A DNA stretch of 64,000 nt from the NCBI RefSeq assembly GCF_008365315.1, contig NZ_CP043506.1, positions 2,090,001-2,154,000 of the forward strand, written 5' to 3'. A program made the position numbers and the translations under genes. The notes under the pieces were generated by a model. The model ran no database searches and was not told where the DNA came from. It was given only the letters and a program-made list of their open reading frames with translations. Shown one piece after another: positions 19,666-50,805 of the stretch. Positions within the stretch are counted from its first letter, which is position 1, and every line of letters begins with the position of its first letter. The DNA is from Acetobacter vaccinii (GTDB lineage: Bacteria; Pseudomonadota; Alphaproteobacteria; Acetobacterales; Acetobacteraceae).

Positions 19666-20100
19666 TCACCCGTGATGATGTCGTTTCGGTTGGCACGACA
19701 GGAGGCTGACACCGGCCGTATCTTCAAAATGGTCTGGATGCGCTGTGAGAGGCATGGACACGACATCGTCGCTCCGATGGTCAGCATAGACGAACGTTAA
19801 ATAGTAAGACCGGTCGTCGCTCGAAGGATCGCTATCGAACATTTTGTCCCATTCCAGCAGGTCGCGCCGCAGTGGTGATCCGACGTCGCCGCTGCGGGTC
19901 CAGACTGCCGACACACAGGGCGAAACGCGCTCGACGCGCACGATCAACCGCCTGTTGAGAAACGCCTTTCCATCGAGCTCCTCGTTGAACATCGTATTGC
20001 CGTTGTAAGACAGCTCCTCCAAGGACTGCGGCCTGGCGCCCGCGAGGGCAGTTCCGCCGATACAAACGACGCAAATCAGGCTCAGGATAACGCGGAGCAT
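19666..20100 (-). CDS. Hypothetical secreted protein (duplicate B)
   Basis: The 144-aa paralogue of the protein at 18825-19277 begins with a signal peptide (ILSLICVVCIGGTALAGA). Most of the body is the same (LIVRVERVSPCVSAVWTR, then YYLTFVYADHRSDDVVSM), but it ends in KRHHHG in place of the Gln-Pro run. Both copies keep open frames and a signal peptide, which suggests both may still be selected. The ATG at 20100 again overlaps the stop of a truncated frame. Function is unknown. Confidence 0.6.
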   Translation of the reverse strand: MLRVILSLICVVCIGGTALAGARPQSLEELSYNGNTMFNEELDGKAFLNRRLIVRVERVSPCVSAVWTRSGDVGSPLRRDLLEWDKMFDSDPSSDDRSYYLTFVYADHRSDDVVSMPLTAHPDHFEDTAGVSLLSCQPKRHHHG

Positions 20101-20280
20101 CAATATCGTCCTTCCAGCAGAAGCATGGCCTCGTCGTGCCGTCTTTTGACGAGGCCACGCAAGACCTTGCCTTTCGAACGCACCTGCTCCGCAATGATCA
20201 TGACGGCCTTGCGTTTGTCGTCGCTGTTGATAGCAGCACGGACCTCCGGCCAACCTTCTTCCCGAATTATAGACGAACGA
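20100..20280 (-). pseudogene. 3' tail of an upstream gene, duplicate B
   Basis: This frame is the counterpart of the one at 19277-19457, with a few substitutions (EVRAAINSDDKRK). It is closed by a TGA a few codons beyond the repeat boundary. No start codon or recognisable domain is present. Confidence 0.5.
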
Positions 20281-20619
20281 GACAGGGGCGTCGAACTCGT
20301 TTTGTGTCAGGTAGGCAGAGGCGCTCCGGCAAACGATTGCCTCAGAACTCGGGAGATGGGTCTGTGGAATAGGGCTCTGCAGATCGCCTGTCAGACTGAA
20401 GAGATTTTTATTTTATCTCTTCGTAGCGTGTGATGAAGCTGCGCTCATTGTCGAACGGGCAATAGAACCTGAGCGGGTTTCCCCTTTATCTTTGGCTTGG
20501 CGATCCAGACGCACCAGAACGAGGGGAGAATGATATTGCGCAAAGCCTTTCTTTAGTATTGCGATTAATTCTTAACTACAGTATCGAGGTCCGGGTGTTT
20601 CCTTAACTGACGTGATCTC
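20281..20619. other. Spacer between mobile debris and the FecI-type operon
   Basis: About 340 bases contain no supported gene. The right end should hold the promoter of the sigma-factor gene. No clear Fur box was identified by eye. Confidence 0.35.
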
Positions 20620-21135
20620 ATGAATTCTAACGTCACTCTTTTGACAGAGCTGCTTCTGAAAGAGCGTCCATCACTCTTGCGCCTGATTAAGCGGATTGTG
20701 GGCAGTGTGACGGATGCCGAGGATCTGACGCAGACCCTCTGGTTGCGTATTCAGTCTGTGACTGACAGCCCGCCTATTGAGAACAAGCAGGCCTATCTGT
20801 ATCGTTTGGCCCGTAATGTTGCGCTGGATCGCCTGCGTGCCTTCGACCGGCATAATGCAGTTTTTGAGGCAGCACCTTTGTTGGATGAGGTTGTGGCTCC
20901 GCTTCCATCTGCGGAAACTCATCTGATTGATCGAGAAAATTTAGAAATTCTTCTTCAGGCGATAGAAGGTTTGCCGCCCCGGTGCAGGGAGGTTTTTATT
21001 TTACGGAAAGTCGAAAACCTCAAAATTTCGGAAATTTCTGAACATCTCGGGATGTCATCCAGTATGGTAGCGCGCCACCTGCAACATGCACTCACCCATT
21101 GTATGGCACGGCTTAAAGAAACTGGTGTGCCTTGA
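20620..21135 (+). CDS. ECF sigma factor, FecI-like
   Basis: This 171-aa sigma-70 family protein has region 2 (VGSVTDAEDLTQTLWLRI, then YLYRLARNVALDRLRA) and region 4 (LPPRCREVFILRKVENL, then ISEISEHLGMSSSMVARH). It has no extra domains. It is followed by a FecR-type anti-sigma gene (55-bp gap) and an STN-type TonB receptor, the standard cell-surface-signalling trio in which a bound siderophore releases the sigma factor. It probably drives its own receptor gene. Confidence 0.9.
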   Translation: MNSNVTLLTELLLKERPSLLRLIKRIVGSVTDAEDLTQTLWLRIQSVTDSPPIENKQAYLYRLARNVALDRLRAFDRHNAVFEAAPLLDEVVAPLPSAETHLIDRENLEILLQAIEGLPPRCREVFILRKVENLKISEISEHLGMSSSMVARHLQHALTHCMARLKETGVP

Positions 21136-21190
21136 TCATCCGCGTTTTTATTCTCCACAGGCATTCTGTCTGTTTTTAAAAGTCTTTTCC

Positions 21191-22162
21191 ATGTCAGATC
21201 CTTTTAGTGATAGTGATGATGAAGCGTCTCGCTGGGTAATCCAGCAGGATATGGGGCCGCTTTCTGGGGATGATGAGCGGGAGTTTCTTGCATGGTTGCA
21301 ACATGATGTTGCCCATCAGGAAGCGTATCTCCGGGCACAGAAAACATGGGCGGCTATGAGTGCCCCGAGTATTACACAGGCTCTGGCACAACACACATCA
21401 GCAGTCGCAGTAATTCCCAAACGGAGGCGTCGTTTTGGTAAGGCCAGAAATGGCTGGGCAGTCGCAATTGCAGCTTGCCTTGCCTTAGGGATGTACGTTG
21501 GTGAACCACCCGTATTGTTATGGTGGCAGGCAAGTGAGACTTCCCGCGTAGGAGAAATCCGGACAGTAACGCTGGCGGACGGGTCACAAGTGCAGTTGGA
21601 TAGTGATAGTGCGATTGCTGTGCATTACACAGACAAGAAGCGGGAAGTACGCCTTTTAAAAGGCCAGGCTGCTTTTACGGTCACGCCGGACCGAGAGCAC
21701 CCCTTTGTTGTGACGGCGGAAAATGGAGATACTACGGCGCTAGGCACGCGCTTTATCATCAAGCGCAATGCGGCTCTGACCGATGTGACGGTGACAGAAC
21801 ACAGTGTGCGTGTTCAGGCGCAAGGGCATAATGCGCTATCTGAGGTCATTGTGCATGAAGGTGAGAGTACAACTTACGGCCCTCAAGGTGTCTTTGCGGC
21901 TCATGAGGTGGATGTTGACACTCAGGCTGCCTGGACCCGAGGTCGGCTGGTGTTTGTGGACCAGCCGCTGAAAACCGTGATCAACGAGCTGGCGCGCTAT
22001 CATCGAGGGTACATCACACTCATCAACGCAGAGGTTGGTAAGCTGCGGGTGAGTGGTTCTTTTGATGCGACAGACCCTTTGGCGGCCCTTGATACGTTGG
22101 AGCATTCGATAGGCCTGCATATTACAAAAGTGACCAATGCTTTGATTTTTATAAGGAAATAA
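21191..22162 (+). CDS. FecR-type transmembrane anti-sigma regulator
   Basis: The 323-aa product has an N-terminal cytosolic sigma-binding domain (SRWVIQQDMGPLSGDDER). One membrane segment follows near residues 85-100 (GWAVAIAACLALGMYVG), then a periplasmic FecR domain (VTLADGSQVQLDSDSAIAV) and a C-terminal secretin-like domain (LDTLEHSIGLHITKV). The start is ATG 21191; the longer frame upstream is unsupported. It should sense the STN domain of the next gene's receptor and control the upstream sigma factor. Confidence 0.9.
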   Translation: MSDPFSDSDDEASRWVIQQDMGPLSGDDEREFLAWLQHDVAHQEAYLRAQKTWAAMSAPSITQALAQHTSAVAVIPKRRRRFGKARNGWAVAIAACLALGMYVGEPPVLLWWQASETSRVGEIRTVTLADGSQVQLDSDSAIAVHYTDKKREVRLLKGQAAFTVTPDREHPFVVTAENGDTTALGTRFIIKRNAALTDVTVTEHSVRVQAQGHNALSEVIVHEGESTTYGPQGVFAAHEVDVDTQAAWTRGRLVFVDQPLKTVINELARYHRGYITLINAEVGKLRVSGSFDATDPLAALDTLEHSIGLHITKVTNALIFIRK

Positions 22163-22292
22163 TATTTTCCAAAAATCTTTCAATTTTGACGTTCGCGTTT
22201 TTTGTTTTCAAGCGTCATCAGGAATGAGAGGCATTTGCAAAATAGGCAATGCCATATAATTCTGCTTACTCTGATGGGGCTAACTCAAAGCG

Positions 22293-24755
22293 ATGCTGCC
22301 TGTTACGATCAATACCCATGCCTCAAAGCTCAGAAGTTTTGCAGCCTCGCTGCTTTTTACTACAGCCAGCATATCTGTGACGACAGTTGTTACTGTTTCC
22401 GAAGTGCATGCCCAAACGCTGCAAACCTATAATATTCCGGCGGGCTCACTGGCTACGGCTTTAAATCGCTTTAGTGAAGTATCAAATATCCAGCTTGTGT
22501 ATGATGCATCTCTGACCCGCAACCTGCAATCGCCGGGTATAAAAGGCACGATGCTGCCAGCCGAGGCTTTATCGCATCTGCTATCAGGCAGTGGTTTATT
22601 ATACAGATTCACGAATGGTAAGTCCGTTACCCTGACAAAACCGTCCAACACCATTACCCTTGGCCCAGTCAGGGTTGGCGGCGTATTACAAAAACAGGCT
22701 CCAGACACAGCAATGATTGGTAACCTTCCCCCTGTTTTTCCAGGAGGGGATGTCGCGCGTGGTGGGCAGATGGGTATGCTTGGCAATAAGGACGTCATGG
22801 ACACCCCCTTTAACGCCACCAGTTATACAGCCGATTTTATTAAAAACCGTCAGATACGGAATATCCGTGATGCGTTAAAGGATGATCCATCTGTAAGGAG
22901 CACGTTTACAACGGGTAGTCCGGGTTATGAGGCTATGACTGTCCGGGGTTTTAATGTGCTGAGCACAGATATGTCTTTTGGTGGCCTTTACGGCATTGTG
23001 CCAGCACCAGCGACTTTGTCTGAAGTGGCAGAGCGTGTGGAGGTTTTGAAAGGTCCGGCCGCTTTATTAAATGGCATGTCACCGGGTGGCTCTATTGGGG
23101 GGGCTATCAATATTGTTCCAAAACGGGCGCATGATACACCACTGACAGAGGTTGAGGCTGATTATACCTCTAATAGTCAATTTGGCGGTCATCTTGATCT
23201 GGGGCACCGGTTTGGAAAAAACAAGAATTTCGGGCTGAGAGCAAATGGTGTTATTCGCTCTGGTAATACAGCCATAGAACGCAACAGTATGAGAACAGCC
23301 CTGACATCGTTAGGGGCTGATGCCAGATTTAAACATGTGCGTCTTTCTGCTGATTTTGGATATCAGTATCGCGGGATTGATGGAACAGTTCCCTATTTTT
23401 CCTTACAGGATACGACGCCAATCCCACAGGCCGATAAAGTAAGCCGTAACCTTGGTGCGCCGTGGAGCAGGGATCGTAGTCAGGATTATTTTGGGGTTTT
23501 TAAAAGCGAAGTTGATTTGCTTCGCAATGTTACGGCGTATGGTGCTGTTGGTATGAGTTCTAATCAGGCGCATGGTTTGATGATAAAATCAATCAGCAAT
23601 ATTGACAGTCGTGGGCTCGGAAATGGGAGTGCCAATGCAACAGGGAATGAAAGCACGAATATAACCGCAGATCTTGGTTTAAGGGCGCATCTTAAAACAG
23701 CATTCTTGCTGCATGAACTGGCTTTTGCGGCCAATAGATACCAGTCTGATTCTGGAACTTTTTCTCAATATGAAACAATGAACCGTGGCACTGTGCCGAT
23801 TGATGGCTATACGGCTTTTGCACGACCAACAATCAAGGTGCCGGGGCATGTGCCTCATACAGCCTCTTCCACACTGTCCAGCCTGGCATTTGCCGATACG
23901 ATTTCAGCCTTGGACAAGCGTATTCAGGTAACTGCAGGTTTGCGGGTACAACGTGTGCAGTCTGCAAATTTTAGTGCTTCAACCGGGCTGAGAACCAGTA
24001 GTTACGATCAGACGGCTATTAGCCCTGCTGTTATGGCTGTGTTCAAACCTGTTAAGAATGTAATGGTTTATGGAAACTGGATACAAGGCCTCCAGCAGGG
24101 GACAATCGTAGGTTCCACCTATGCCAATGCCGGTGAGATTTTTTCACCTTATAAATCGACCCAGTATGAGGTGGGTGTTAAAGGTGACTTTGGGAGGTTT
24201 GTTGCAACATTCGATGTTTTTCAGATCATGCAGCCCAGCACCATTTATGACAGTGCAACAAATATTCTGTCATTGAATGGAGAGCAGCGTAATCGTGGCT
24301 TGGAGCTGAATGTTGTGGGGCAGCTTGCCAAAGGCCTTCACATTGCTGGTGGGTTAATGCTGATTGACCCTCGCCTGACCAAAACACAAGGTGGGAAGAC
24401 CGACGGATGGAAAGCTGCCGGAGTATCAACCGTTAACTTCAATGTCGGTCTTAATTACGATATTCCCTGGGTCAAGAACCTCGCTTTGACAAGCGATGTT
24501 ACATATACGAGTTCGCAATATCTGGATACGATTGTGCCACGTCGTAGTTTCCCTGGCTGGGTCAGGCTTGATCTGGGTGCGCGCTATAGCATCAAAAACC
24601 CGGCGTCTCAGGATGGAGGCAGGCTGTCGTTCTATCTCAATGTCGATAACGTGGCCAACACCCGCTACTGGAATAGCATGGGTCCGTATGCAGCTTACTT
24701 CTTGACACTTGGCGCGCCGCGCACAGTCCGTTTTGCCATTTCGGCTGATTTTTGA
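22293..24755 (+). CDS. TonB-dependent siderophore receptor with STN signalling domain
   Basis: This 820-aa outer-membrane receptor has a leader ending near HAQ (residues 1-40). An STN domain follows (residues 42-115, LQTYNIPAGSLATALNRF), then the plug (NRQIRNIRDALKDDPSV ... AERVEVLKGPAALLNG) and the 22-strand barrel, ending in Phe (TVRFAISADF). The STN domain is the part that talks to FecR, which fits the two genes upstream. The plug resembles FcuA/FhuA-type hydroxamate siderophore receptors. The ligand is not readable from sequence. Confidence 0.9.
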   Translation: MLPVTINTHASKLRSFAASLLFTTASISVTTVVTVSEVHAQTLQTYNIPAGSLATALNRFSEVSNIQLVYDASLTRNLQSPGIKGTMLPAEALSHLLSGSGLLYRFTNGKSVTLTKPSNTITLGPVRVGGVLQKQAPDTAMIGNLPPVFPGGDVARGGQMGMLGNKDVMDTPFNATSYTADFIKNRQIRNIRDALKDDPSVRSTFTTGSPGYEAMTVRGFNVLSTDMSFGGLYGIVPAPATLSEVAERVEVLKGPAALLNGMSPGGSIGGAINIVPKRAHDTPLTEVEADYTSNSQFGGHLDLGHRFGKNKNFGLRANGVIRSGNTAIERNSMRTALTSLGADARFKHVRLSADFGYQYRGIDGTVPYFSLQDTTPIPQADKVSRNLGAPWSRDRSQDYFGVFKSEVDLLRNVTAYGAVGMSSNQAHGLMIKSISNIDSRGLGNGSANATGNESTNITADLGLRAHLKTAFLLHELAFAANRYQSDSGTFSQYETMNRGTVPIDGYTAFARPTIKVPGHVPHTASSTLSSLAFADTISALDKRIQVTAGLRVQRVQSANFSASTGLRTSSYDQTAISPAVMAVFKPVKNVMVYGNWIQGLQQGTIVGSTYANAGEIFSPYKSTQYEVGVKGDFGRFVATFDVFQIMQPSTIYDSATNILSLNGEQRNRGLELNVVGQLAKGLHIAGGLMLIDPRLTKTQGGKTDGWKAAGVSTVNFNVGLNYDIPWVKNLALTSDVTYTSSQYLDTIVPRRSFPGWVRLDLGARYSIKNPASQDGGRLSFYLNVDNVANTRYWNSMGPYAAYFLTLGAPRTVRFAISADF

Positions 24756-24920
24756 GTTCTTGTGGTGTGGATAGCCCTGTCTTGGTGTTCGATTAGAGTT
24801 TTGTAAAATGCTCAAAATTCAGTAGTTTCGTACCTGCGGCAAGACGCTTAAAAACTGTGGAAGAATATGCGGTTCGGGTATGCCTCTGTGGCAGTCAAAT
24901 CCACCATAGAGGCTCCAAAA

Positions 24921-25799
24921 TCATGCAAGCAAATTGACCTGATGCTTCAGGACATGGTGCCTGAAGAGAGCATCGGCTTCATCCTGCAATTCCCGCAAAA
25001 TCGTGGTGTTGATGTGGTGAATGCTCCAGTTCCTAGCGACGATGGCTTTGTGCCAGGCGCGGCGTAGGCCAGGGCTGGTGTCGTCGGTAGCCAGAATATA
25101 GGCGGCCTGATCGATATTATGTGGAATGTCACGGCCCAGTCGTTCAAGCCCATCAAAAAAACTGGCTATGGTATAAGCCCCGATGGTTTGTGCCTGAGTG
25201 GTCCAAAAAACCGAACGGTTGGGAATAAGCGCCTCGGACCCCTGCAATAACCGCATAGTACCTGTTGTCAGTGCGTAGTCCTGATAGGGGGCAAAGGTGA
25301 TCAAGGCATCAAGTTGGGCCTGTTGAAGCGCTGCGAGTCCTTCGGCGGGGAGGACATCGCGGGTGATGACATCGTTTAAATTTAAGCCTTCTTTTTCAAG
25401 TGCTTTTGCTAGTAGGTAGGTCTGAAAAGAGCCTTCTGCAAGTCCGATGGTTTTGCCTGCCAGATCCTGCACGGTCATGATGTCAGAGTCGGTTGAGACG
25501 ACAAGAGCACCATCGCGCCGCCGCTGTGCGGACGCGGCCAGAAAGGTGACGTCCTGCCCATTGGCGGCAGCAAAAATAGGTACTGTGGAACTGGTGCCAC
25601 AAATATCAATCTCCCCAGTGGCAAGAAGAGCCGCACTGTCTCGACCATTGGCGTAGCGGATAAATTCTACAGCGATATTTGGGAAAGTTCCCTCCCAGCG
25701 AGATGCCAGCACCAGATGCAGGTTCGCTGGGTGCACCCCGATACGGAGCGGGCGTTTGCCCTTTATAATGGTCGGGATGGGAAGGGAGGTGGCATTCAT
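24921..25799 (-). CDS. SsuA/NMT1-like substrate-binding protein without signal peptide
   Basis: The 292-aa product has a periplasmic-binding-protein fold of the SsuA/TauA/ThiY group: PLRIGVHPANLHLVLASR at the start, then GEIDICGTSSTVPIFAAANG and VQDLAGKTIGLAEGSFQTYL. No signal peptide or lipobox precedes the domain, so it may be cytosolic. DszB desulfinases show that this fold has been recruited as cytosolic enzymes. Unlike the neighbour at 26352-27392, it lacks a Cys-Pro active-site motif at the N-terminus. No ABC permease or ATPase gene lies nearby. It diverges from the ArsR gene. Sulfonate-type binding is an inference. Confidence 0.7.
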   Translation of the reverse strand: MNATSLPIPTIIKGKRPLRIGVHPANLHLVLASRWEGTFPNIAVEFIRYANGRDSAALLATGEIDICGTSSTVPIFAAANGQDVTFLAASAQRRRDGALVVSTDSDIMTVQDLAGKTIGLAEGSFQTYLLAKALEKEGLNLNDVITRDVLPAEGLAALQQAQLDALITFAPYQDYALTTGTMRLLQGSEALIPNRSVFWTTQAQTIGAYTIASFFDGLERLGRDIPHNIDQAAYILATDDTSPGLRRAWHKAIVARNWSIHHINTTILRELQDEADALFRHHVLKHQVNLLA

Positions 25800-25943
25800 G
25801 TTCCATATTATACCGACACAGACAGCGGATTCCAGATGATAAACAGAGGTAATCAGAACGGGTTGCAGCTGGGAGCATAATTAAGCATACTCGTGGCGTG
25901 AAATTGCTCAGACAGCATAACCACGCAACCAAAAGGCGTGCCC

Positions 25944-26342
25944 ATGACAAAAATTGTAGACTGTTCGCCTGCAGACAATGCGCTCGAACTGCTCAAGCAA
26001 CTCGCTAACCCCAATCGGTTGGCCATTGTCGGCAGCCTTCTGGAGGGCCCCCGCTCCGTGGCGGAGCTGGAGCTGGTTCTCTCCATCCGTCAGCCCACGC
26101 TGTCCCAGCAAATTACCTCCCTGCGGGATGCCGGGCTCATTGAAGGTCGTAGGGAAGGGCGGCATACAATTTATTTTTTGTGTGACGAGCGTGTCACCTC
26201 TGTCATGCGTTTTTTAGCCACTCTTTACCCAGACCTTCTGCCCGCGCAGTTACGCATTCTACCGCCTTTTGGCAATATGAACTGCACGGACCTGCCTGAG
26301 ATGATTGTTGATATGCGGTTGTCTGCCCAGGACGTGTATTAA
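25944..26342 (+). CDS. ArsR-family winged-helix regulator
   Basis: The 132-aa product contains the ArsR helix-turn-helix core (LLKQLANPNRLAIVGSLL, then SVAELELVLSIRQPTLSQ, then REGRHTIYFLCDERV). Cys at about residues 7, 80 and 114 could be redox or ligand sensors, but the CxC metal motif of ArsR/SmtB is absent. The core resembles the BigR/SqrR sulfide-responsive group in wording, though I cannot confirm its cysteine pair. ATG 25944 is preferred, with AAGG 7 bases upstream. It lies between two sulfur-type genes and converges on the desulfinase-like gene with 9 bp between stops. Confidence 0.85.
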   Translation: MTKIVDCSPADNALELLKQLANPNRLAIVGSLLEGPRSVAELELVLSIRQPTLSQQITSLRDAGLIEGRREGRHTIYFLCDERVTSVMRFLATLYPDLLPAQLRILPPFGNMNCTDLPEMIVDMRLSAQDVY

Positions 26343-26351
26343 CCCGCTATT

Positions 26352-27392
26352 TCATGCGGCGATGCTGAGGGACGAGGCTTCACGCAGTGGACGTGGGTCA
26401 ATCCACTCATGAATATCAAAATCAGTGTTGATGAAGCCATGGTGCAGAAGGAAATTTTTCTGAATTTCCAAGGCATTAATCCATTCTGGCTCCAGGCGTA
26501 TTTCCAAACTCTGCGGTAATGCAGGCCCGTAGGCGGCAAAAGCATCGGCCGCTGTTGTGTTGGTTTCACGTCCGACGATTTCAAAAACCTGTTCTTCATG
26601 GGTTTTAGCCCAGACGGCAGCGCGCTGTAGCACGGCAAGATAGTGTGCCACGAGGTCTGGTCGTGTTTGGGCGAAAAGGCGGTCAACAGTGACCGGTCGA
26701 GGGGTGCCGTTGTTGATTTTGAATTTTTGGTCTGTAAAGGCGTTGATGTCGGCGATAATGCGTAGCCCGTGCTCACGCTGTAGGGCGACTGCCTGTGCGC
26801 CTTTGGCGTAAATGGCGTCCACCCGGTCCGCCAGCAGAGCATCAGCAATAACATCCCGCCAGGGCTTGGTGTCATTGTGGCCTTGTGTAAATCGGGTGGG
26901 ACCGGCTTTGAATTCACGGATCGTCACATCATTCAGGCTGAGTCCCTGGCTGGCCAGAACGGAGACATAACCATGCAATGCCATTGCACGGGCAAAGTCG
27001 ATTGTATCGTCCGGGCGCAAGGGTAGGGCGAGTGTTTTGCTAGCCAGATCTGCGGCGGAGGTAATCTGGCTCTCGGGTCGGACAAGAATAAACTGCGCTT
27101 CATCGACCCATGTAAGTCCGACAACAACAGTATCTTGCCCGCGTGAACGCGCCCAGATTGCTGGGATATTACCACCTTCACGGAACAGGCCATGTAAGTT
27201 GTGGTTGAAATGCGCGCTACGGACATTTTCTTCAGGTGCATCACGCAGAGAATGTAGCTGAATACCTTTGTTCAGCAAGCTTTCCCGCAACCAACCCTTA
27301 TCCAGAGCAATGCCAGTTGCCGTGGGTACGGGGCAGCGTGTGTACCAGAGTGATGAAATGTTGTGGGGAGAGATGGAAGCGGAATCCGACAT
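26352..27392 (-). CDS. DszB-like sulfinate desulfinase (SsuA-fold enzyme)
   Basis: The 346-aa product lacks a signal peptide and has the SsuA/NMT1 fold. Its N-terminus reads SLWYTRCPVPTATGIAL, matching the YSNCPVPN context of the catalytic Cys27 of DszB. His61 (SAHFNHNLHGLF) and Arg71 (LFREGGNIPAIWA) sit 10 residues apart, as do His60 and Arg70 in DszB. DszB hydrolyses hydroxybiphenyl sulfinate to phenol and sulfite. I infer C-S bond cleavage of some sulfinate here. It is divergent from the DszA-type monooxygenase, supporting a paired function. ATG 27392 has AGGG about 8 bases upstream; longer starts at 27407 and 27419 exist. A binding-protein role is the alternative. Confidence 0.72.
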   Translation of the reverse strand: MSDSASISPHNISSLWYTRCPVPTATGIALDKGWLRESLLNKGIQLHSLRDAPEENVRSAHFNHNLHGLFREGGNIPAIWARSRGQDTVVVGLTWVDEAQFILVRPESQITSAADLASKTLALPLRPDDTIDFARAMALHGYVSVLASQGLSLNDVTIREFKAGPTRFTQGHNDTKPWRDVIADALLADRVDAIYAKGAQAVALQREHGLRIIADINAFTDQKFKINNGTPRPVTVDRLFAQTRPDLVAHYLAVLQRAAVWAKTHEEQVFEIVGRETNTTAADAFAAYGPALPQSLEIRLEPEWINALEIQKNFLLHHGFINTDFDIHEWIDPRPLREASSLSIAA

Positions 27393-28047
27393 GACAGCGA
27401 CCCTCATGGGGTTAAACACACAAAATAAACGTCATATATATAAATATAACATTTTTTGTGAGTCAATGTGTCGGGCACTTTCACCAACATATCTTGAGAG
27501 ATGGGGGTGGTGGAAATTCATTCGGACATATTGATCTGATCCGAATCTGTGACATGCGTAGTCATGATGGCAAAAAATAATCATTAACCATTTGAAAAAT
27601 AATATTTTTATGTCTTCTGAAGGTGGTTGATGCCTTGGCCTGGTGACTTTCTAGGGGCGTGGTTGAACACTCAACAAACCTCAAAACCTAGCATGAAGAA
27701 CGCAAAATAATTTTGCTGCATGCTCTGGTGTTCCTTTGTTCTGAGAGTGTCGAGTGTCTGGAAATGTCTTCAATTCAAGACGCATAAAAATAATCAACCA
27801 TTTGATTTAAAATGGTTTTTATAAAAACAAAGCCTATTGCTTTGGGGTGGCACCGTCTACGCCTGCCAAAAATTACACAAAAAACATTATATAAAAAAAT
27901 ATACCGTAATGTTGACACGGCATCAGCAAAATGCATCTTAATGATGTGTTATTTTTTTAACGCACGAAAACGAATCGTTATAAAATCCAACAGCTAGACA
28001 GCAGCGCCCCGGATGGTCGGTGGCGGCATGTCGGGAGAGGTCTGGTT
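27393..28047. promoter_or_regulatory. AT-rich divergent control region between desulfinase-like and monooxygenase genes
   Basis: This 655-bp stretch separates two divergent genes and is markedly AT-rich. It contains a split direct repeat (listed separately). A hairpin AACCATTT/AAATGGTT at 27796-27817 is followed by a short T-run. A TTGACA at 27912-27917 could be a -35 for the monooxygenase gene, though a good -10 at 17 bases is not obvious. GGGAGAGG before 28048 is a clear ribosome-binding site. No gene is seen. Confidence 0.5.
27573..27805. repeat. Split direct repeat in the divergent region
   Basis: AAAAATAATCA-TTA-ACCATTTGA at 27573-27595 recurs without the central TTA as AAAAATAATCAACCATTTGA at 27786-27805, about 213 bases apart. 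Two copies of a 20-base element between divergent genes suggest a regulator-binding site. Confidence 0.55.
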
Positions 28048-29424
28048 ATGAGTAAAACTGCCAGTTCGGGCACAAAAAAACGCCAGCTTGTTCTTGGGGC
28101 TTTCCTGACACGTTATGGCCACCACCCCGGCGCATGGCGTCAGCCTGAAACACAGTTGGGCGTCGGGCCGGATTTTGCATCCTGGCTACATCTGGCGCGC
28201 ACGGCCGAGCGCGGCAAATTCGACACGGTTTTTCTGGCTGACTTCGTGGGGATGGGGGGGGATGACCTGTCCAGCTACGAAAAAGGGGCAGGTTTTCATG
28301 GGTTTGAACCACTGAGCCTGATTTCTGCCTTGGCCGCAGCGACAACACATGTCGGGCTGGTGGCTACGGTGAATACCAATTTTTCCCATCCCTACACTTT
28401 GGCGCGCACTATGGCCTCTATCGACCATCTGAGCGGTGGGCGCGTGGGGTGGAATGTTGTGTCGTCCTTGTCTCCCGGTTCCATCGCCACATTTGGTGTG
28501 CATGACCCGCTGGACCACGCTGCCCGCTATGATCGGGCAAGTGAGTTTATAGATGTAGCAAAAAAGCTTTGGGACAGTTGGGATGATGATGCTTTTGATC
28601 ATCCCGACAAATCCAGCGGGCGTTTTCTCAGTGCTGATCAGGGCCACCCTGTGCACCATCATGGCACGTATTTTGATGTGGACGCAGTACTGGACCTGCC
28701 GCGCCCAGTACAGGGCTACCCGGTTTTTGTGCAGGCGGGCAACTCCGATACAGGCCGGGATTTTTCTGCCCGCCATGCTGAAATGATTTATGCTGCCGCT
28801 CAGTTTGTTGAGGATGCCAAGGATTACTATGACGATGTCAAAGGTCGACTGGCACGTTGGGGGCGCTCGCCAGACCAGTTGAAGATTACTCCCGGTCTTT
28901 CCTTTTCCATCGGCAGGACTGAAGAAGAGGCGCATGAAAAGTTTGAGCGCCTGCAAGGTGCTGTCAATTTTTCTGGCCCGGTTGAACTCATGGGGGTGGA
29001 TCTGACAGGCTATCCGCTGGACGGGCCATTGCCGACGGATATTCCCGTGCCAGAAAATGGTAAGGGTCGGTGGGCGCAGGTGGTCCGTCTGGCAGAACGT
29101 GAAAAGCTGACCATTCGCCAACTGGTGCTGCGTTACAACGTGGTGCGCGGGCATCGTGTTGTCATTGGCACCCCGGCCCAGGTGGCAGACCAGATTGAAG
29201 ACTGGTTTCTTAAAGGTGTGGTTGACGGGTTTAACCTTATCTCCCCACTGAACCCTGCTTTTCTTGAAGAGTTTGTTGATCTGGTTGTGCCGGAATTGCA
29301 GCGTCGTGAGATCTTTCGCACCGAGTATGAAGGCAAAACCCTGCGCGATCGCCTGAACCTTCCTCGCCCGGCTAATCAGCATTCGCGGCTGGTGGAAAAA
29401 GCACGAGAGGCCGTTCAGGCTTAA
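28048..29424 (+). CDS. DszA/NtaA/SnaA-family FMN-dependent monooxygenase
   Basis: This 458-aa luciferase-like enzyme uses reduced FMN. The N-terminus (GAFLTRYGHHPGAWRQP), the motif ARTAERGKFDTVFLAD, GRVGWNVVSSLSP and the C-terminus (VVPELQRREIFRTEYEG, then KTLRDRLNLPRPA) match the DszA/NtaA/SnaA group. DszA oxidises dibenzothiophene sulfone to the sulfinate, the substrate of DszB, so divergence from the DszB-like gene is striking. Related members attack nitrilotriacetate, EDTA or sulfones, so the substrate is open. No flavin reductase gene is visible in the window; FMNH2 must come from elsewhere. GGGAGAGG precedes the ATG. Confidence 0.85.
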   Translation: MSKTASSGTKKRQLVLGAFLTRYGHHPGAWRQPETQLGVGPDFASWLHLARTAERGKFDTVFLADFVGMGGDDLSSYEKGAGFHGFEPLSLISALAAATTHVGLVATVNTNFSHPYTLARTMASIDHLSGGRVGWNVVSSLSPGSIATFGVHDPLDHAARYDRASEFIDVAKKLWDSWDDDAFDHPDKSSGRFLSADQGHPVHHHGTYFDVDAVLDLPRPVQGYPVFVQAGNSDTGRDFSARHAEMIYAAAQFVEDAKDYYDDVKGRLARWGRSPDQLKITPGLSFSIGRTEEEAHEKFERLQGAVNFSGPVELMGVDLTGYPLDGPLPTDIPVPENGKGRWAQVVRLAEREKLTIRQLVLRYNVVRGHRVVIGTPAQVADQIEDWFLKGVVDGFNLISPLNPAFLEEFVDLVVPELQRREIFRTEYEGKTLRDRLNLPRPANQHSRLVEKAREAVQA

Positions 29425-29525
29425 CTATTCTTCCGGCTCTGAGAAATTACACAATAAAAGCGCTTTATTTCTCAGAATCCGTAAAAACTTATGATGTAAA
29501 AACGTTTTTCCAAGGATAATTCTGT

Positions 29526-30266
29526 ATGACCACCACCTCTCAGAGCAAAGGGGCGAGTGCTGATCTCACTCCGGAAACCACGGCGTTTATCGAGACAGTC
29601 AAGCACGAGGCGGGACGGGCTTTTAACGCATTTCGCACAACTGGCACCATTACCGCCAATGGTACTGTCGGGTTTATTGAACGTGTGCCGGGTCAGGAAC
29701 TGCTTGTTGCAGTCAATTATCCAGGTCCGTTTGAGGTTGATCAACCCTTGAGCGCTCATGTTTTCGATCTTCAGGGCAAGGCTGTGCTGGGCAACCCGCA
29801 GGGGGCAAACCGTTATGCCAGGGTTTTTCGGGAGCAGCCAACTATAACAAGCCTGAGCCATGTCCATTCACCCAGTCTGGGGGCATGGGCGCAAACACAC
29901 CGCAGTTTTCCTATTCATTATGTTCCTGTCCAGCGTTTTCGTCTGAGCCGTGAGCTGCCAGTCTATATTGACCGGCGGCAGGCAGAAGATGATTTCATTC
30001 TGGAAACGCTGTCCCGCACGCCTGAAACACCGGGCATTATCGAGGCTAATGGGGGGGCAACAGTCTGGGGCTGGAAAGGGCTGCGCGATCTGGCTGAGTT
30101 TATTCTGCTGCTCGAAGAGGGCGCGGATATCCAGATCCGTGCGCAGGCTGTTGGCGGTTCGCGGCCATTTGGCCCCGGTGTGCTGCGTCAGCAGTGGACG
30201 ATGAGTGGCCTGTATGACCGTGCGAGAGCCGAGAATCTGCTGACAGCATCCGATCTGCCGAGCTGA
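29526..30266 (+). CDS. Class II aldolase/adducin-family protein with an altered metal site
   Basis: The 246-aa product has the class II aldolase/adducin fold. The first metal pair is present (SLSHVHSPSLGAWAQTH, His-x-His), and the helix region after it (GLRDLAEFILLLEEGADI) fits the family. The segment that normally reads HHG or NHG and supplies the third His instead reads EANGGATVWGWKG, so this His is missing. Zinc binding and aldolase chemistry may be altered or lost. It lies 101 bases after the monooxygenase gene with its own AAGGA site, so it is probably in the same transcription unit. Substrate is unknown. Confidence 0.75.
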   Translation: MTTTSQSKGASADLTPETTAFIETVKHEAGRAFNAFRTTGTITANGTVGFIERVPGQELLVAVNYPGPFEVDQPLSAHVFDLQGKAVLGNPQGANRYARVFREQPTITSLSHVHSPSLGAWAQTHRSFPIHYVPVQRFRLSRELPVYIDRRQAEDDFILETLSRTPETPGIIEANGGATVWGWKGLRDLAEFILLLEEGADIQIRAQAVGGSRPFGPGVLRQQWTMSGLYDRARAENLLTASDLPS

Positions 30267-30431
30267 GAAAACGCACCGTGGATGGGGTGGGGGCACGCAT
30301 CGCGGTGGTGAAAGGGCAGGGTACGGTGGTTCGTGGCAGTGGTCGATAGCACTGCCACATCCCCCGGTATGCCGTAATTTCTTGCAATTTTTGAAAAAAT
30401 GACCCGGTCCGGCCGTGACCACGAGGAAGAC

Positions 30432-32789
30432 ATGACAGTGCGGAAGGCGTCCCGTATACGCAATTACAACACGATTATCGTCCTGGGCCTGGCCTTTGAT
30501 GTAATGACTGTGCCATTTCTGTCAGGGGCGCAGGCTCAGTCTGCTACTCCGGTCGGAGCGGCGGTCAAGTCAGGGGCAAAAAAGGACGCCAGGAAGCCGC
30601 TGCCTGAATCTCAGCAGAGCGAGCAACTGCTTGTGACAGGGCAAAAACTGCGTATTGCAGGGGCCAAGCCTGAGACGCAGGCTGTAACCCGCACGACCTT
30701 GACCCGCCAGCAGATCGAGCAATACACGGGCGGCCTGTCCACGGCGGTAAGCGGTAGCCTCAATTACGTAGGGGGCGTGCACTTTGCAGGCAATGATGGA
30801 ACAGGCATTGCGGAAGGTACCTTTACCATTCGTGGGTTTTCGGGGGACCAAATCGGCTTTACACGCGACGGCGTGCCGTTGAATGACCCGATGTTTCTGA
30901 CCCCGCATGTTGATTTTATGGGCGATCCGGAAAACTACGAGGATGTGCAGGTTATTTACGGGTCACCATCAATCAATGCACCGACGCTGACGGCAAGCGG
31001 CGGGCAGGTCAAGATTGATACCCTTAATCCGTCTGACAAGCCGTCTTTCTTCTATAAGCAGACATTTGGCAATAATGATCTGTTTCGGGAATTCGGTCGG
31101 GTCAATTTTGGCAAGCACGGTGGATTTTCGGGGTGGGTATCGGCCTCCCATACCAGTGGCAGCCTTTGGACAAATAACGGCGGGAGCGAGGCAGCAACCC
31201 GTTACGAAGCTAATCTGCGTTACCAGTGGGGGGAGGAGAACGAGATCAAACTGGTGGCCTCAAGCTACGACATGCAGACTAATGCCTTCAGCTATCCCAC
31301 CTTGGCGCAGTATCAGACGCAGCCTTACGGCACCAATTTTGGGTCACGCGTGTTAACCACCGGGCATGGAACATATGGGGTTGCGGATGTTTCCTCCACC
31401 ACGGCACCGGCACAAGCCCTCAACCGGGCAGATTTTCGTATTCAGACCTTTGGGCTGAACACGCATTTCAAGCTGCATGACAGGGTCAGACTGAACTTTA
31501 CGCCCTATTTTGTGCATGTCGCCAGCGGGATGGCCACATTCGGTGCCATGACATTGCCTGAAGGGTTGGTAAACTCTGACCTGAATGGGGATGGTGACAG
31601 GCTGGATACCACGTCGGTCGGTTTTGGCGTGCTGCCAACCCAGAACAGGGGCGGCTTTACAACCACCGTGGATGCAAAACTGGCGAATTGGGATACTGTT
31701 CAGGTCGGCTTTTGGTACGATCATACCGGTGCCAGCAATCAGATGCCCTTTTTGCGGATTAATGACAACGGGTCACCCCAGGCAACGGATGGGAGCCACC
31801 TTCTGACCGATGCCTCGGGCCGTAAGCTCTATCTGACCAACCAGGATGATGTGATCGAGACTGAGAAAGTCTGGGTGCAGAATGACCTGCGACCCATCCA
31901 GTCATTGGATATTGTCTCGGCTCTGGCATGGCAGCATACGCAAAACAGTGGTCACAACAATGCCGGTTTCTTCACCGGGGAGGAATATGACCGTTCGCAA
32001 GGGTATTACCATCTGCTGCCTAGTGGCTCTATTTCCTACCGGTTGAATGGGCACAACCAGTTTTATTACAACGACACGCTGAACATTCGCCCGCCTGCCA
32101 TTGCCAGCATTTATGGCAATGGCACCCCCAAGGCAGAAACAACCTGGAATCAGGAACTGGGCTGGCGGTATACCAGTCGGCAGGTTTTTGTTGATGCCTC
32201 TGTTTTTCTGGCAAAGTTTAAAAACCGTCAGGTTTCCTACGCGGTTAACAGCGCGGAAACAGCCTACTTTAACGCAGGCAATGTGACATCGCGCGGGGCG
32301 CAGGTTTCCGTTCATGGTAAGCTGCCTTATAATTTCAACTACTTTGCCTCATGGGCCTTTGTGGATGCACGGCAGGCATCCAACTATACCTATAACGGAA
32401 TTGTTGCTCCCACGCGCGACAAGCAGCTTTTCAATACGCCGCAGCACACGCTTGTCGCGGGTCTTGGGTATGATGACGGGAAATTCTATTCCAACTTCCT
32501 GATCCATTATACGTCATCATTCTATGGTGACTTGGCAAATACCCAGAAAATTCCGGGCTATGAAACGTTCGACCTGAACTTTGGCTATCATTTCCATGTT
32601 CCTGTTCGGCATCTGGGCGCCGGTACGGTTTCTCTTAACCTCAATAACATTGCTAATCGCCATTATCTGGGTGGGGTATATTCCGGTACAGTGGACGCAG
32701 CACCGGGGAACAGTTTTTCTGCCAGCCCCACATATATTCGGGGTGCACCGCGCACAGTTTTTGCCAATATTTCGATGGAAATTGAGTAA
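30432..32789 (+). CDS. TonB-dependent outer-membrane receptor (module A)
   Basis: This 785-aa receptor starts at ATG 30432 with GAGGA just upstream. A signal peptide ends near AQAQ. A plug domain follows without an STN domain (TFTIRGFSGDQIGFTRDG, then QVIYGSPSINAPTLTASGG), then the barrel (NLNNIANRHYLGGVYSG). Lacking STN and any adjacent FecI/FecR pair, it should be a pure transporter. It sits within a catabolic gene set, and a relative occupies the same role at 54120-56480. I infer uptake of the organic substrate of the module and not iron. Iron-chelate uptake remains possible. Confidence 0.88.
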   Translation: MTVRKASRIRNYNTIIVLGLAFDVMTVPFLSGAQAQSATPVGAAVKSGAKKDARKPLPESQQSEQLLVTGQKLRIAGAKPETQAVTRTTLTRQQIEQYTGGLSTAVSGSLNYVGGVHFAGNDGTGIAEGTFTIRGFSGDQIGFTRDGVPLNDPMFLTPHVDFMGDPENYEDVQVIYGSPSINAPTLTASGGQVKIDTLNPSDKPSFFYKQTFGNNDLFREFGRVNFGKHGGFSGWVSASHTSGSLWTNNGGSEAATRYEANLRYQWGEENEIKLVASSYDMQTNAFSYPTLAQYQTQPYGTNFGSRVLTTGHGTYGVADVSSTTAPAQALNRADFRIQTFGLNTHFKLHDRVRLNFTPYFVHVASGMATFGAMTLPEGLVNSDLNGDGDRLDTTSVGFGVLPTQNRGGFTTTVDAKLANWDTVQVGFWYDHTGASNQMPFLRINDNGSPQATDGSHLLTDASGRKLYLTNQDDVIETEKVWVQNDLRPIQSLDIVSALAWQHTQNSGHNNAGFFTGEEYDRSQGYYHLLPSGSISYRLNGHNQFYYNDTLNIRPPAIASIYGNGTPKAETTWNQELGWRYTSRQVFVDASVFLAKFKNRQVSYAVNSAETAYFNAGNVTSRGAQVSVHGKLPYNFNYFASWAFVDARQASNYTYNGIVAPTRDKQLFNTPQHTLVAGLGYDDGKFYSNFLIHYTSSFYGDLANTQKIPGYETFDLNFGYHFHVPVRHLGAGTVSLNLNNIANRHYLGGVYSGTVDAAPGNSFSASPTYIRGAPRTVFANISMEIE

Positions 32790-32928
32790 TGATTGCTCAT
32801 TTTCATACAGGAGCCAAAAACTTGGGCATGTATTGCCCATGGTATGGCGGCCGATGTTGTTCCAGCACTCACGACGTCTAATAAAACAAGAACTGTCAGG
32901 CTAAAAGTAAGAGAGGCAGGAGCCCATT

Positions 32929-34551
32929 ATGGTGCGCGATCTGGAACAGACTGAGTATGACTATATTATTATTGGCGGTGGCAGTGCGGGGTCCGTTATT
33001 GCGGCACGGCTCTCGGAGGATGGTAAGAACACGGTACTGCTTCTAGAAGCCGGACCTGATTTTACGCCTGACACAACGCCTGATGACATAACAGATGGCG
33101 TGGATATGACCAGTGCGATCCGCCATGCGGACCGTTATACGTGGACAGAGCTTCAGGCACAGTTTGTAAAAGACACGGCAGAGCGTGCATTTTACGAGCA
33201 GGCCCGCGTGATTGGTGGAGGGTCATCCATCAACGTCATGGCGGCCAATCGTGGTCTGCCGCGTGATTATGATGAGTGGGAGCAGGCAGGAGCAGTCGGG
33301 TGGAACTGGGAAAACCTTCTACCATACTTCAAAAAGCTCGAACATGATCATGATTATGATGGCCCCTTGCATGGCAAGGATGGACCCATCCACATAACTC
33401 GTAATGATTATGCCACTTGGCCCGGTTTTGTTGAGCAGGGCCGTGAGGCTTTGGAGGAACTGGGATATCGCGACATCGGAGATGTGAATGGTGCCTTTGT
33501 CGATGGTTTTTTCAGGCCTGGTATTTCCAGCAAGGATGGCAGGCGCTCATCCGCTGCACTGGCTTATCTAGACGGACAAACGCGTAGCCGACCCAACCTG
33601 CGTATTGTTGGCGAGGCGCAGGTTGAACGCCTTGTTGTTGAGAACGGGCGGGTCGGTTCCGTCATTGCCAGCATCGCGGGCCAGAAGGTGACCATTCCTG
33701 CGCGGGGGGAGGTTGTTCTGACAGCAGGGGCGCTGCATACCCCAGCTATTTTGCTGCGTTCTGGCATTGGGCCAGAGGCAGGGCTGCGTAAGGCTGGCAT
33801 TGCAATCTCCCATGTCAGGGAAGGGGTGGGGCGTAACCTGCGTGACCACCCGGCTCTGAGCCTGACAACTGGTATTCCCCAGAGTCAGGCGCTGGCTAAG
33901 GCGGAGGTGCCTGCTCATTTTCTGGGCCTGCGGTATTCCTCCGGCGTGGATGCGGCGCTGCCGACGGACATGTTTCTGGGGGTTGGGGTGGCCCCTGTGC
34001 CAGCACCTGTGGGGCACCTGATCACCTGGGTCAACAAGTCAGTCTCAACCGGGGAGGTCACTCTTTCGTCCGAGCAGGCATCGGGGCTGGATGTGCGCTT
34101 TAACCTCCTATCTGACCCGAGTGATCGGGAAAGGCTCAAGCGAGGCCTTGAGTTTATTGCAGGTTTGGGGGTAACAGGCGCGCTTGGGCAGGACTGGTAC
34201 GTCCCGCATGTGCATTTTGGGCGTTTGCGCCTTGGGGCAGCAGGCACTGGCGCTGTGCTGCCGCTGCGGGATGTGCTGGCGGATGAAGAGCAGCTTGATG
34301 ACTATTTCCGCAGTGCTGTCAAAGGGCTGTGGCATGCATCAGGCACAGCCCGTCTGGGGCGGCAGGATGATCCTCTGGCTGTGGTGGATAGAAACGCCCG
34401 CCTGATTGGTATTGCCAACCTGCGCGTGGGCGATGCGTCACTTTTTCCGACAATTCCAACAGCCAACACCAACCTTCCGACCATTGCTGTAGCAGAAAAA
34501 GTGGCCGATCTGATCCGGCACACAGCCCAAACCGCAGGAGGGGCCGTATGA
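32929..34551 (+). CDS. GMC-family FAD-dependent alcohol oxidoreductase
   Basis: The 540-aa flavoenzyme starts with the dinucleotide-binding motif DYIIIGGGSAGSVIAARL, with LLLEAGPDF after it. The GMC signatures are ARVIGGGSSINVMAANRG and GEVVLTAGALHTPAILLRSG. The catalytic His is in GLWHASGTARLG and the partner Asn in TANTNLPTIAVAEK. It resembles choline and alcohol dehydrogenases. It should oxidise an alcohol to an aldehyde, and the aldehyde dehydrogenase gene overlaps its stop by 4 bp (ATGA), implying coupled steps. No signal peptide is seen, so the enzyme is cytosolic. Confidence 0.9.
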   Translation: MVRDLEQTEYDYIIIGGGSAGSVIAARLSEDGKNTVLLLEAGPDFTPDTTPDDITDGVDMTSAIRHADRYTWTELQAQFVKDTAERAFYEQARVIGGGSSINVMAANRGLPRDYDEWEQAGAVGWNWENLLPYFKKLEHDHDYDGPLHGKDGPIHITRNDYATWPGFVEQGREALEELGYRDIGDVNGAFVDGFFRPGISSKDGRRSSAALAYLDGQTRSRPNLRIVGEAQVERLVVENGRVGSVIASIAGQKVTIPARGEVVLTAGALHTPAILLRSGIGPEAGLRKAGIAISHVREGVGRNLRDHPALSLTTGIPQSQALAKAEVPAHFLGLRYSSGVDAALPTDMFLGVGVAPVPAPVGHLITWVNKSVSTGEVTLSSEQASGLDVRFNLLSDPSDRERLKRGLEFIAGLGVTGALGQDWYVPHVHFGRLRLGAAGTGAVLPLRDVLADEEQLDDYFRSAVKGLWHASGTARLGRQDDPLAVVDRNARLIGIANLRVGDASLFPTIPTANTNLPTIAVAEKVADLIRHTAQTAGGAV

Positions 34552-35987
34552 ACGCGACACCAGAAAACTCGATCCATCTCCCCATAATTATCGGACATGA
34601 GGAGAGGGATGAAGGTACATTTCTACCCGTTTATGACCCTGCGACTGGCCAAAACATTGGGTCTACTGTTGTGGCCGATGCCGCCATTGTCGATTGGGCC
34701 GTGACACGTGCGGCTCAGGCTTTTCCAGCATGGGCGGCGTCAGAGGGGCAGCGGGTACAGGCATTACAGGCCGCAGCTGCAACCCTTGGGGGGCATGTGG
34801 AGGAATTGGCAGCCTTGCTGGCGCGGGAGACCGGGCATTCCCTCGCGTTTGCCCGGATTGAGGTACAGGCAGTCATTGGTCTGCTTGGTGGTGCTGCGGC
34901 ACGCTCCACCCCTGTGCTGGAGCCAGTGCGATATGGAGCACTGCAAGCCCAGCCAGTGTATGTGCCGTATGGGGTTGTGGCTGCCATTGGCCCGTGGAAT
35001 GTGCCGCTTATCCTCTTGTTCCAAAAAATCGCGGATGCACTTCGGGCCGGGAATACCGTAGTGGCCAAGCCTTCGGAATACACGCCACTGTCCACAGTGC
35101 TGATTGGCAGGCTGATCCGTGGGCATTTTCCAGACGGGGTGTTGAGTATTCTGGCCGGGGGAGCGCAGACAGGCGAGCAGCTTGTAGCGCACCCGCTTGT
35201 CAGCAAGATCAGCTTTACGGGCAGTGTGGCAACAGGGCAGCGTATTCTTGGCAGCGCGGCAGCCCGTGTGGTGCCAGTCACAGCCGAGCTGGGTGGTAAT
35301 GACCCTGCCATTGTGTTTGAGGATGTGAACCCGCAGGATGTTATAGAGCGTCTGTTCTGGGGTAGTTTTTTCAATTCCGGGCAAATATGCTTTGCCATCA
35401 AACGGCTGTATGTTCATGACTCGCTATACGATACCGTGGTTGCAGGCCTTGCAGAGCGTGCCCAGCGCACACGTCTGGGTGGCCCCGCAGACCCAACGGC
35501 AGAGCTGGGACCGCTGACGACTAAGGCGCAGTTCCTTCATATTCAGACGTTGGTGTCAGAAGCCCGTGCACAGGGTGCGATCATTCATTCGGGTGGTGAG
35601 GCATTGGCCGGGCCGGGTTTCTTTTACCCACCGACGATTGTGACAAACCTTGCCGAAGATTCCCGCCTTGTGGCTGAGGAACAGTTTGGGCCAGTTCTGC
35701 CCGTATTGCGCTTTGCTGATACCGAGGACGTTATCCAACGCGCCAACAACACCCGCTATGGGCTTGGTGCCTCGGTCTGGAGTGCTGACACGGCGCGGGC
35801 CGCAGCCGTTGGGGCACAGCTCCGCTCTGGCCTGCTGTGGGTCAATGGGCATGGAAACGTTGTGCCCGGTGCGCCCAAGGCCGGGTTTGGCGCAAGCGGT
35901 CTGGGGGTTGAAGGCGGGCAAAGCGGTTATGAGTCCTATTTGAATATCCGGACCCTTTATGGGCCAGTGCCGGAGACAAACGCATGA
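34548..35987 (+). CDS. Aldehyde dehydrogenase (NAD(P)+-dependent)
   Basis: The 479-aa enzyme contains the family motifs GPWNVPLILLFQKIADAL, the general-base Glu in TAELGGNDPAIVFED (about 260) and the nucleophile Cys in NSGQICFAIKRLY (about 295). It should oxidise the aldehyde made by the overlapping GMC enzyme to an acid. The start overlaps the GMC stop and its own stop overlaps the MFS start, both as ATGA. The substrate cannot be read from sequence. Confidence 0.92.
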   Translation: MNATPENSIHLPIIIGHEERDEGTFLPVYDPATGQNIGSTVVADAAIVDWAVTRAAQAFPAWAASEGQRVQALQAAAATLGGHVEELAALLARETGHSLAFARIEVQAVIGLLGGAAARSTPVLEPVRYGALQAQPVYVPYGVVAAIGPWNVPLILLFQKIADALRAGNTVVAKPSEYTPLSTVLIGRLIRGHFPDGVLSILAGGAQTGEQLVAHPLVSKISFTGSVATGQRILGSAAARVVPVTAELGGNDPAIVFEDVNPQDVIERLFWGSFFNSGQICFAIKRLYVHDSLYDTVVAGLAERAQRTRLGGPADPTAELGPLTTKAQFLHIQTLVSEARAQGAIIHSGGEALAGPGFFYPPTIVTNLAEDSRLVAEEQFGPVLPVLRFADTEDVIQRANNTRYGLGASVWSADTARAAAVGAQLRSGLLWVNGHGNVVPGAPKAGFGASGLGVEGGQSGYESYLNIRTLYGPVPETNA

Positions 35988-48404: not shown

Positions 48405-48463
48405 ATCAACAGTGCTTTCGATGGTGCATGTTAGGCCAATTCACTGTCCTGAACACGAAAGAT

Positions 48464-49288: not shown

Positions 49289-49356
49289 ATCGGAATCATA
49301 ACATATTCTGTGGGTGTGTGCCACAAAAGACAGCAGAGCAGCACAGAGGCGCCCCC

Positions 49357-50799: not shown

Positions 50800-50805
50800 A
50801 GTCCC

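Follow-up and report, generated by a model that had tools for sequence, protein, structure and literature searches.

What do the two divergent genes at positions 26352 to 29424 of this stretch of Acetobacter vaccinii DNA encode, one of them resembling the desulfinase DszB and the other the monooxygenase DszA? We analysed the whole 64,000-nt stretch, referred to here as the window, and all coordinates are positions in it unless a locus label is given. An earlier note, made from the sequence alone, had read the pair as a two-step system for cleaving organosulfur compounds, and both open reading frames (ORFs) appear in the checked ORF list at the coordinates first claimed. Our preferred answer, to which we give a probability of about 0.55, is that they belong to an organosulfur scavenging module in which a flavin monooxygenase would feed a cytosolic sulfinate desulfinase. 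The computed evidence covers family and fold, the register of the active site, conservation and gene linkage. The two genes are as follows.

26352..27392, minus strand: DszB-like putative sulfinate desulfinase, 346 aa, cytosolic, with Cys20, His61, Arg71 and Gly74 (phmmer against the PDB, profile search, AlphaFold2 (AF2) model with structural alignment, conservation)
28048..29424, plus strand: NtaA/DszA-type luciferase-like monooxygenase (LLM), dependent on reduced flavin mononucleotide (FMNH2), 458 aa (TIGR03860, PDB relatives, 62-82% identical orthologues beside DszB-like genes)

The relationship of the 26352-27392 protein to DszB is far beyond chance in sequence, profile, fold and active-site register. 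With phmmer, DszB (PDB 2DE2/2DE3) was the sole PDB sequence match below 0.01, and the profile match between the DszB-like family and DszB was full length (2.1e-34), with the active-site residues in register. As in DszB, a type-2 periplasmic binding protein (PBP) fold is combined with a cytosolic location. The absence of a signal peptide was judged from the sequence and the model. The first strand of the model comprises residues 14-19 and the Cys column lies early (residue 9-60, median 24, beyond 45 in three of the 120 best matches), which leaves no room for a signal peptide; the SsuA fold lacking such a peptide, as originally proposed, is thus borne out. Two starts are possible for the ORF, GTG 27419 (355 aa) and ATG 27392 (346 aa), the latter with GAGGGT seven bases upstream. 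SsuA shares the fold and part of the sequence, but the window protein has no signal peptide, carries the Cys/His/RXGG set and scores 72.3 bits in TIGR01728 (SsuA), below the cut-off of 163.5; we rejected an ordinary SsuA binding protein because of this score and because the profile is the wrong one for it. In a tree of 89 rows DszB sat on a long branch, at an unresolved fork with the DszB-like family and apart from the SsuA rows (100/99). Because of the long branches, of which treekit warned, we claim no order of descent from this tree.

In order to probe the active site, we used two sets of relatives. The first comprised the best 120, the window's own protein included, of 2565 relatives found at E <= 0.001 among 7998 candidates scored, which may include SsuA-like proteins; the second comprised 64 DszB-family ORFs from the loci described below, one gene being counted twice (L002 and L082). 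Cys20 lies within YTRCPVPT, His61 and Arg71 are spaced ten residues apart, and the PDB sequence of DszB contains YSNCPVPN, all as first noted. The implicated residues of DszB are C27, H60 and R70, and homologues with an RXGG motif are mentioned (PMC6100217). In the profile alignment Cys20 is in register with the catalytic Cys27, while His61, Arg71 (of RXGG) and Gly74 correspond to His60, Arg70 and Gly73. The Cys is kept in 116 of 120 proteins and the other three in 116, 120 and 120, respectively.

In 119 or 120 of the 120 proteins a further eight residues are retained: Trp16, Arg19, His64, Glu72, Asn75, Trp95, Glu98 and Arg232. The corresponding residues of the DszB reference are Ala, Asn, Tyr, Phe, Glu, Arg, Gly and Ser. 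Conservation is looser in the 64 locus ORFs (Arg19 in 53, His64 in 58, Glu98 in 55, Arg232 in 57), and the Glu72 column holds Glu in only 11, with Gln in 28 and His in 18. Arg19, His64 and Glu72 stand beside the catalytic residues, at the places of Asn26, Tyr63 and Phe71 of DszB; Glu98 and Arg232, whose place in the pocket is putative, lie elsewhere in the sequence. Since these five replace Asn, Tyr, Phe, Gly and Ser of DszB, the substrate is probably a polar sulfinate and not 2'-hydroxybiphenyl-2-sulfinate (HBPS).

Next, we asked how the DszB-like genes are arranged elsewhere. Genes were labelled by their best BLASTP match (E <= 1e-8) to hand-picked references, and 'nearby' denotes a distance of at most 5 kb from the segment bounded by the first and last DszB-like copies. 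The survey covered 36 loci from 31 genomes, that is, 37 from 32 genomes minus L102 (genome G698), whose DszB frame was lost by the ORF caller; the window locus was excluded, and plasmid loci L004-L007, L016 and L017 stand outside the 36. The loci came from all seven positive genomes of a phylum sample, from 8/8 and 16/24 of two families, and from four of six in the window's own family, the two weakest being omitted. An LLM gene was nearby in 31 of the 36 loci, whereas the number of LLM genes in these genomes, if evenly spaced, would predict 1.33. The nearby genes included NtaA-type LLMs (17 loci), DszC/acyl-CoA-dehydrogenase types (18), transporters (33) and aldolase-like genes (8, the label of L115 being weak); the DszC-type neighbours suggest that some clusters make their own sulfone or sulfoxide. 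L094, with a gap at the His column, is counted among the 36, and L082, the second copy of the window's own genome, was scored as lacking an LLM despite an LLM C-terminal fragment directly upstream.

A counterpart lies in Acetobacter garciniae, whose synteny and 80% protein identity are the grounds for calling the source an acetic acid bacterium, and which was the one locus found when genome contigs were searched with the DszB-like protein alone. Here the DszB-like, ArsR, SsuA-like, LLM and aldolase-like genes lie within ~11 kb, re-ordered, together with SsuABC-like transporter genes whose binding protein has, by eye, an N-terminal export signal. A Sphingobium plasmid carries DszB-like, aldolase-like, LLM and DszB-like genes in a row beside ssuABC genes. 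With the LLM as query (E <= 1e-150, 385 alphaproteobacterial genomes) we recovered a further two orthologues at 65% identity, from families f131 and f100, either of which may be that of Sphingobium; both accompany DszB-like and aldolase-like genes, and at L125 all three are adjacent on one strand. The aldolase-like query matched three of 72,556 plasmid records, each with a DszB-like gene within ~4 kb, and five of 398 genomes, each with a DszB-like gene within ~2 kb, four of the five belonging to family f44. DszB-like genes are patchily distributed, being present at E <= 1e-20 in 7/398 genomes of the phylum sample (of the same size as, and apparently the same members as, the aldolase-like sample) and in 24/249 and 8/247 of the two families. 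In the window's family they occur in 6/200 genomes at E <= 0.001, and in none of the three other genomes classed in the same genus. The association of the desulfinase-like gene with a flavin monooxygenase holds, but the two-step pair was too narrow a description, as the class II aldolase-like protein is linked as well. As a genomic entity the cluster is real and extends beyond two genes; its biochemistry is a prediction.

The monooxygenase scores 508 bits in TIGR03860 (cut-off 279.7), as expected of an NtaA/DmoA-type enzyme. Its best solved relative is 7e36 chain B, followed by the YtnJ/MoxC entries, DszA/BdsA in fifth place and nitrilotriacetate monooxygenase; the YtnJ structures, which we take to be CmoJ, score 292 bits compared with 275 for DszA. 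It is 40% identical to DszA and 35-42% identical to five other NtaA-type paralogues of its own genome, in contrast to 62% for the Sphingobium plasmid-cluster protein and 82% for A. garciniae. At the level of sequence, this difference between orthologues and paralogues is the strongest sign that the enzyme may be a dedicated partner. Residues Ser139, His156, Arg159 and Tyr160, named for the FMN site of BdsA (PMC5819316), are kept, as is Asp59 of DszA. The substrate site of BdsA is retained only partly: the sulfone contacts His316 and Phe246 are Leu and Tyr here, and Leu230 is replaced by Asn. For the sulfone contact His20 the candidate counterpart is His25, which aligns next to a gap (of 120 matches, 81 have His and 38 Thr), and the adjacent His26 is kept in 116 of 120; YtnJ has Gly and Thr at these two places. 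The designation 'DszA-type' therefore stands for the subfamily but not for any special closeness to DszA. Since DszA is no closer than the paralogues and His316 and Phe246 are lost, a sulfinate product cannot simply be carried over from DszA.

From these results we infer a reaction sequence, the order of its steps and the substrate. After import of an organosulfur compound, the FMNH2-dependent monooxygenase (28048-29424) would oxidise it in the cytosol, breaking a C-S bond to yield a sulfinate or its precursor. The DszB-like protein would then remove SO2 from the sulfinate carbon with no cofactor: the sulfinate would be held by Arg71 and the Gly74 backbone, His61 would close over it, and Cys20 would supply a proton or act as nucleophile. 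The sulfite released would be assimilated. Processing of the carbon skeleton probably falls to the aldolase-like protein (29526-30266), as a third component of the system. Cofactor-free C-S cleavage is familiar from fuel desulfurisation, in which the DszB reaction is the slow step. As a precedent, DszA opens a sulfone to a sulfinate, from which DszB releases sulfite (PMC5819316, PMC6100217). A known proteobacterial alternative also handles sulfinates in sulfur scavenging, but oxidises them to sulfonates first: in Pseudomonas, MsuC oxidises methanesulfinate further, after which sulfite is released by SsuD/MsuD (PMC13352529). A DszB-like reaction would proceed without oxygen, and for each sulfur it would spare the cell one oxygen and one reduced flavin by comparison with the MsuC route. 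In a sulfolane-degrading Rhodoferax, a DszA homologue was found as the last gene of an ssu operon that has no dszB (PMC6395730).

The window genes do not form a dszA-dszB-dszC operon; they are divergent, and none of the genome's DszC-like matches falls in the window. The differing gene order and regulator, and the 30% identity to the annotated plasmid DszB of Mycobacterium, support the view that the system is separate from the actinobacterial dszABC operon. The statement that dszC is absent is true of the window only, since the genome contains three DszC-like matches (27-30% identity, E <= 0.001), one of them directly beside an NtaA-type monooxygenase (L083).

Several observations weigh against the module as we describe it. 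Identity between the window protein and the annotated DszB is only 30%, and DszB lies on a long branch. Ser25, Tyr63 and Gln65, site residues of the HBPS enzyme DszB (PMC6100217), are Thr18, His64 and Leu66 in the window protein, and for this reason we do not file it as an HBPS desulfinase even though the catalytic features tested are present. In the 64 locus ORFs the Cys column is Ser in nine and Pro in one, so that Cys chemistry is impossible for some family members. The LLM shows no particular closeness to DszA, and CmoJ, which is related to it, yields sulfenic acid instead of sulfinate (PMC10863075). The loci are not independent, 16 of 36 coming from family f66. Moreover, the clusters of f44 and f66 with DszB-like and aldolase-like genes have an SsuD-like LLM that is not an orthologue of the window's, so the LLM partner is not fixed, and the aldolase-like proteins of L125 and one of the two L124 copies have diverged (36-37% identity to the window's).

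How far do these points favour other explanations? The fold seen in the AF2 model and structural alignment is common to other cytosolic enzymes, among them MqnD, Thi5 and 4,5-dihydroxyphthalate decarboxylase, and Arg19, His64, Glu98 and Arg232 are specific to the family; it is conceivable, if unlikely, that the Cys/His/Arg site acts on an acid other than a sulfinate, for example in decarboxylation or C-C/C-N cleavage. That the protein is no enzyme but a cytosolic sulfonate- or sulfinate-binding protein that senses or buffers its ligand seems distinctly unlikely. Such a role would accord with the named matches, most of which are called ABC (ATP-binding cassette) transporter or sulfonate substrate-binding protein (one, P0095, has a UniRef name beginning 'Dibenzothiophene d'), and with the Ser copies found near Cys copies in 9/44 loci (two of the 44 being the same gene). 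However, Cys and His are each kept in 116 of the 120 best matches, and the A. garciniae and Sphingobium clusters possess separate SsuA-like proteins. The nine Ser copies (L087, L088, L089, L090, L095, L096, L098, L109 and L119) each have a Cys copy within 20 kb; because Ser in place of Cys27 inactivates DszB (PMC6100217), they look like paired inactive and active copies.

We regard it as improbable that the desulfinase and the neighbouring LLM work apart. In that case the LLM, in the manner of CmoJ, would use a sulfoxide or thioether, and the sulfinates for the DszB-like protein would come from other enzymes of the same response to sulfur starvation. CmoJ, an alkylcysteine sulfoxide C-S monooxygenase, belongs to the same subfamily (but has a sulfoxide substrate and a sulfenic acid product; PMC10863075), and the higher score of YtnJ, the presence of at least six NtaA-type LLMs in the genome and the SsuD-like LLMs of f44 and f66 are all consistent with separate roles. 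In contrast, at least three families (f1, f100 and f131) have LLM orthologues of 62-82% identity in company with DszB-like and aldolase-like genes, and the single-strand arrangement of L125 argues for joint action. A true dibenzothiophene/benzothiophene (4S-type) desulfurisation pair would draw on the same two enzyme families as DszA and DszB but is very improbable: the residues neighbouring the catalytic set differ from those of DszB, on which ground we rejected a thiophene pathway, BdsA His316 and Phe246 are not kept, and, compared with the family profile, DszB carries an insertion at residues ~130-155. A more sweeping and decidedly tentative version of the scavenging module, which is doubtful at present, is that LLM, zinc-site-deficient aldolase-like protein and DszB-like protein constitute a widespread sulfinate pathway of three enzymes that acts on polar organosulfur compounds from nature and has stayed hidden through the annotation of its desulfinases as transporter binding proteins; the actinobacterial oil-desulfurising DszB would then be a specialised offshoot, and the f44/f66 enzyme would be paired with a Cys-to-Ser partner.

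In the open-licence PubMed Central (PMC) literature searched, we found no description of the DszB-like family or of its LLM linkage. CDD has a DszB-like domain model. If the scavenging module is correct, a family with kept catalytic residues and a link to flavin monooxygenases in many proteobacteria would point to sulfinates as ordinary intermediates of sulfur scavenging; many 'substrate-binding protein' annotations would be corrected, and new starting points for desulfinase would become available.

From 24.9 to 30.3 kb the order is SsuA-fold (minus), ArsR (plus), DszB-like (minus), 655 bp, NtaA-type monooxygenase (plus) and class II aldolase-like (plus). The remaining features are listed here.

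24921..25799, minus strand: second SsuA-fold protein, 292 aa, no visible signal peptide, divergent from the ArsR gene (TIGR01728 113.7 bits, below 163.5)
25800..25937, no strand: ArsR/SsuA-like divergent intergenic region, with the 12-nt element TAATTAAGCATA common to A. garciniae (compared by eye)
25938..26342, plus strand: ArsR-family regulator, convergent with the DszB-like gene (HTH_metalloreg, BigR model, PDB alignment)
27393..28047, no strand: divergent control region of the DszB-like and LLM genes, 655 bp, exactly the length first given
29526..30266, plus strand: class II aldolase-like protein, HVH kept, third zinc His replaced by Gly (alignment with 8ix6)

The aldolase-like protein has only the HVH of the three zinc histidines; the position that we take to be that of the third is Gly in the 8ix6 alignment and in 119 of 120 proteins. 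The second SsuA-fold protein is 77% identical in A. garciniae, and a 33% identical relative occurs in a Streptomyces plasmid cluster with a DszB-like gene and an LLM. The ArsR regulator, 90% identical in A. garciniae, scores 70.7 in HTH_metalloreg (above 55) and 73.6 bits in the BigR model (below 155). BigR/SqrR-type sensing was rejected: the Cys of LVCTLVEG, presumably the first redox Cys of BigR, aligns to Gly, and the second Cys lies beyond the alignment. Promoter-like matches in 25780-29540 were not above chance (four found, 3.6 expected), the promoter and terminator scans gave no more than shuffles, and inverted repeats in the two control regions were only short or imperfect. TAATTAAGCATA has one window match with up to two mismatches, and at least one match also in 38/100 shuffles; it is a candidate operator only.

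A pair of exporter-type ABC proteins recurs beside the clusters (L007:13371-17010, L124, L125 and L096), with a TonB receptor also present at L125 and L096; a larger compound might be imported through them. We do not include the window's two TonB receptors in the cluster because they are not orthologues of the A. garciniae/L125 receptor (26-29% versus 42%).

The assembly (3.08 Mb, three contigs) holds a second DszB-like gene ~350 kb away (L002:910-2547; own genome C1, ~2469300-2470940), directly behind the LLM C-terminal fragment and next to a transposase that is IS5-like by eye. Further organosulfur-type islands occur at L081, L083 and L084: one has three NtaA-type LLMs, an acyl-CoA-dehydrogenase-type flavoprotein and Ssu-like transporter genes, another has an LLM next to a DszC-like gene, and in the remaining one Opp-type transporter genes accompany an LLM. 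Outside the window, the genome encodes a single ORF in which two sulfite/nitrite reductase domains occur, as well as four flavin reductases (sought as PF01613 only).

G+C is 47-56% at 20001-34000, compared with 58-65% to the left of 18 kb. Acquisition cannot be concluded from this difference by itself, since most of the window's right side is also at 53-59%. Adjoining the module, 20620-24755 encodes an ECF (extracytoplasmic function) sigma factor, a FecR-like protein (by eye) and a TonB siderophore receptor. Downstream of the second TonB-type receptor (by eye), glucose-methanol-choline (GMC) oxidoreductase, aldehyde dehydrogenase and major facilitator superfamily (MFS) genes with overlapping ends occupy 32929-37189. 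Finally, 45649-52125 contains, by eye, amidohydrolase, hydrolase, IclR-type regulator, glutamine synthetase-like and Rieske oxygenase genes, and looks like an aromatic amine or amide catabolic cluster.

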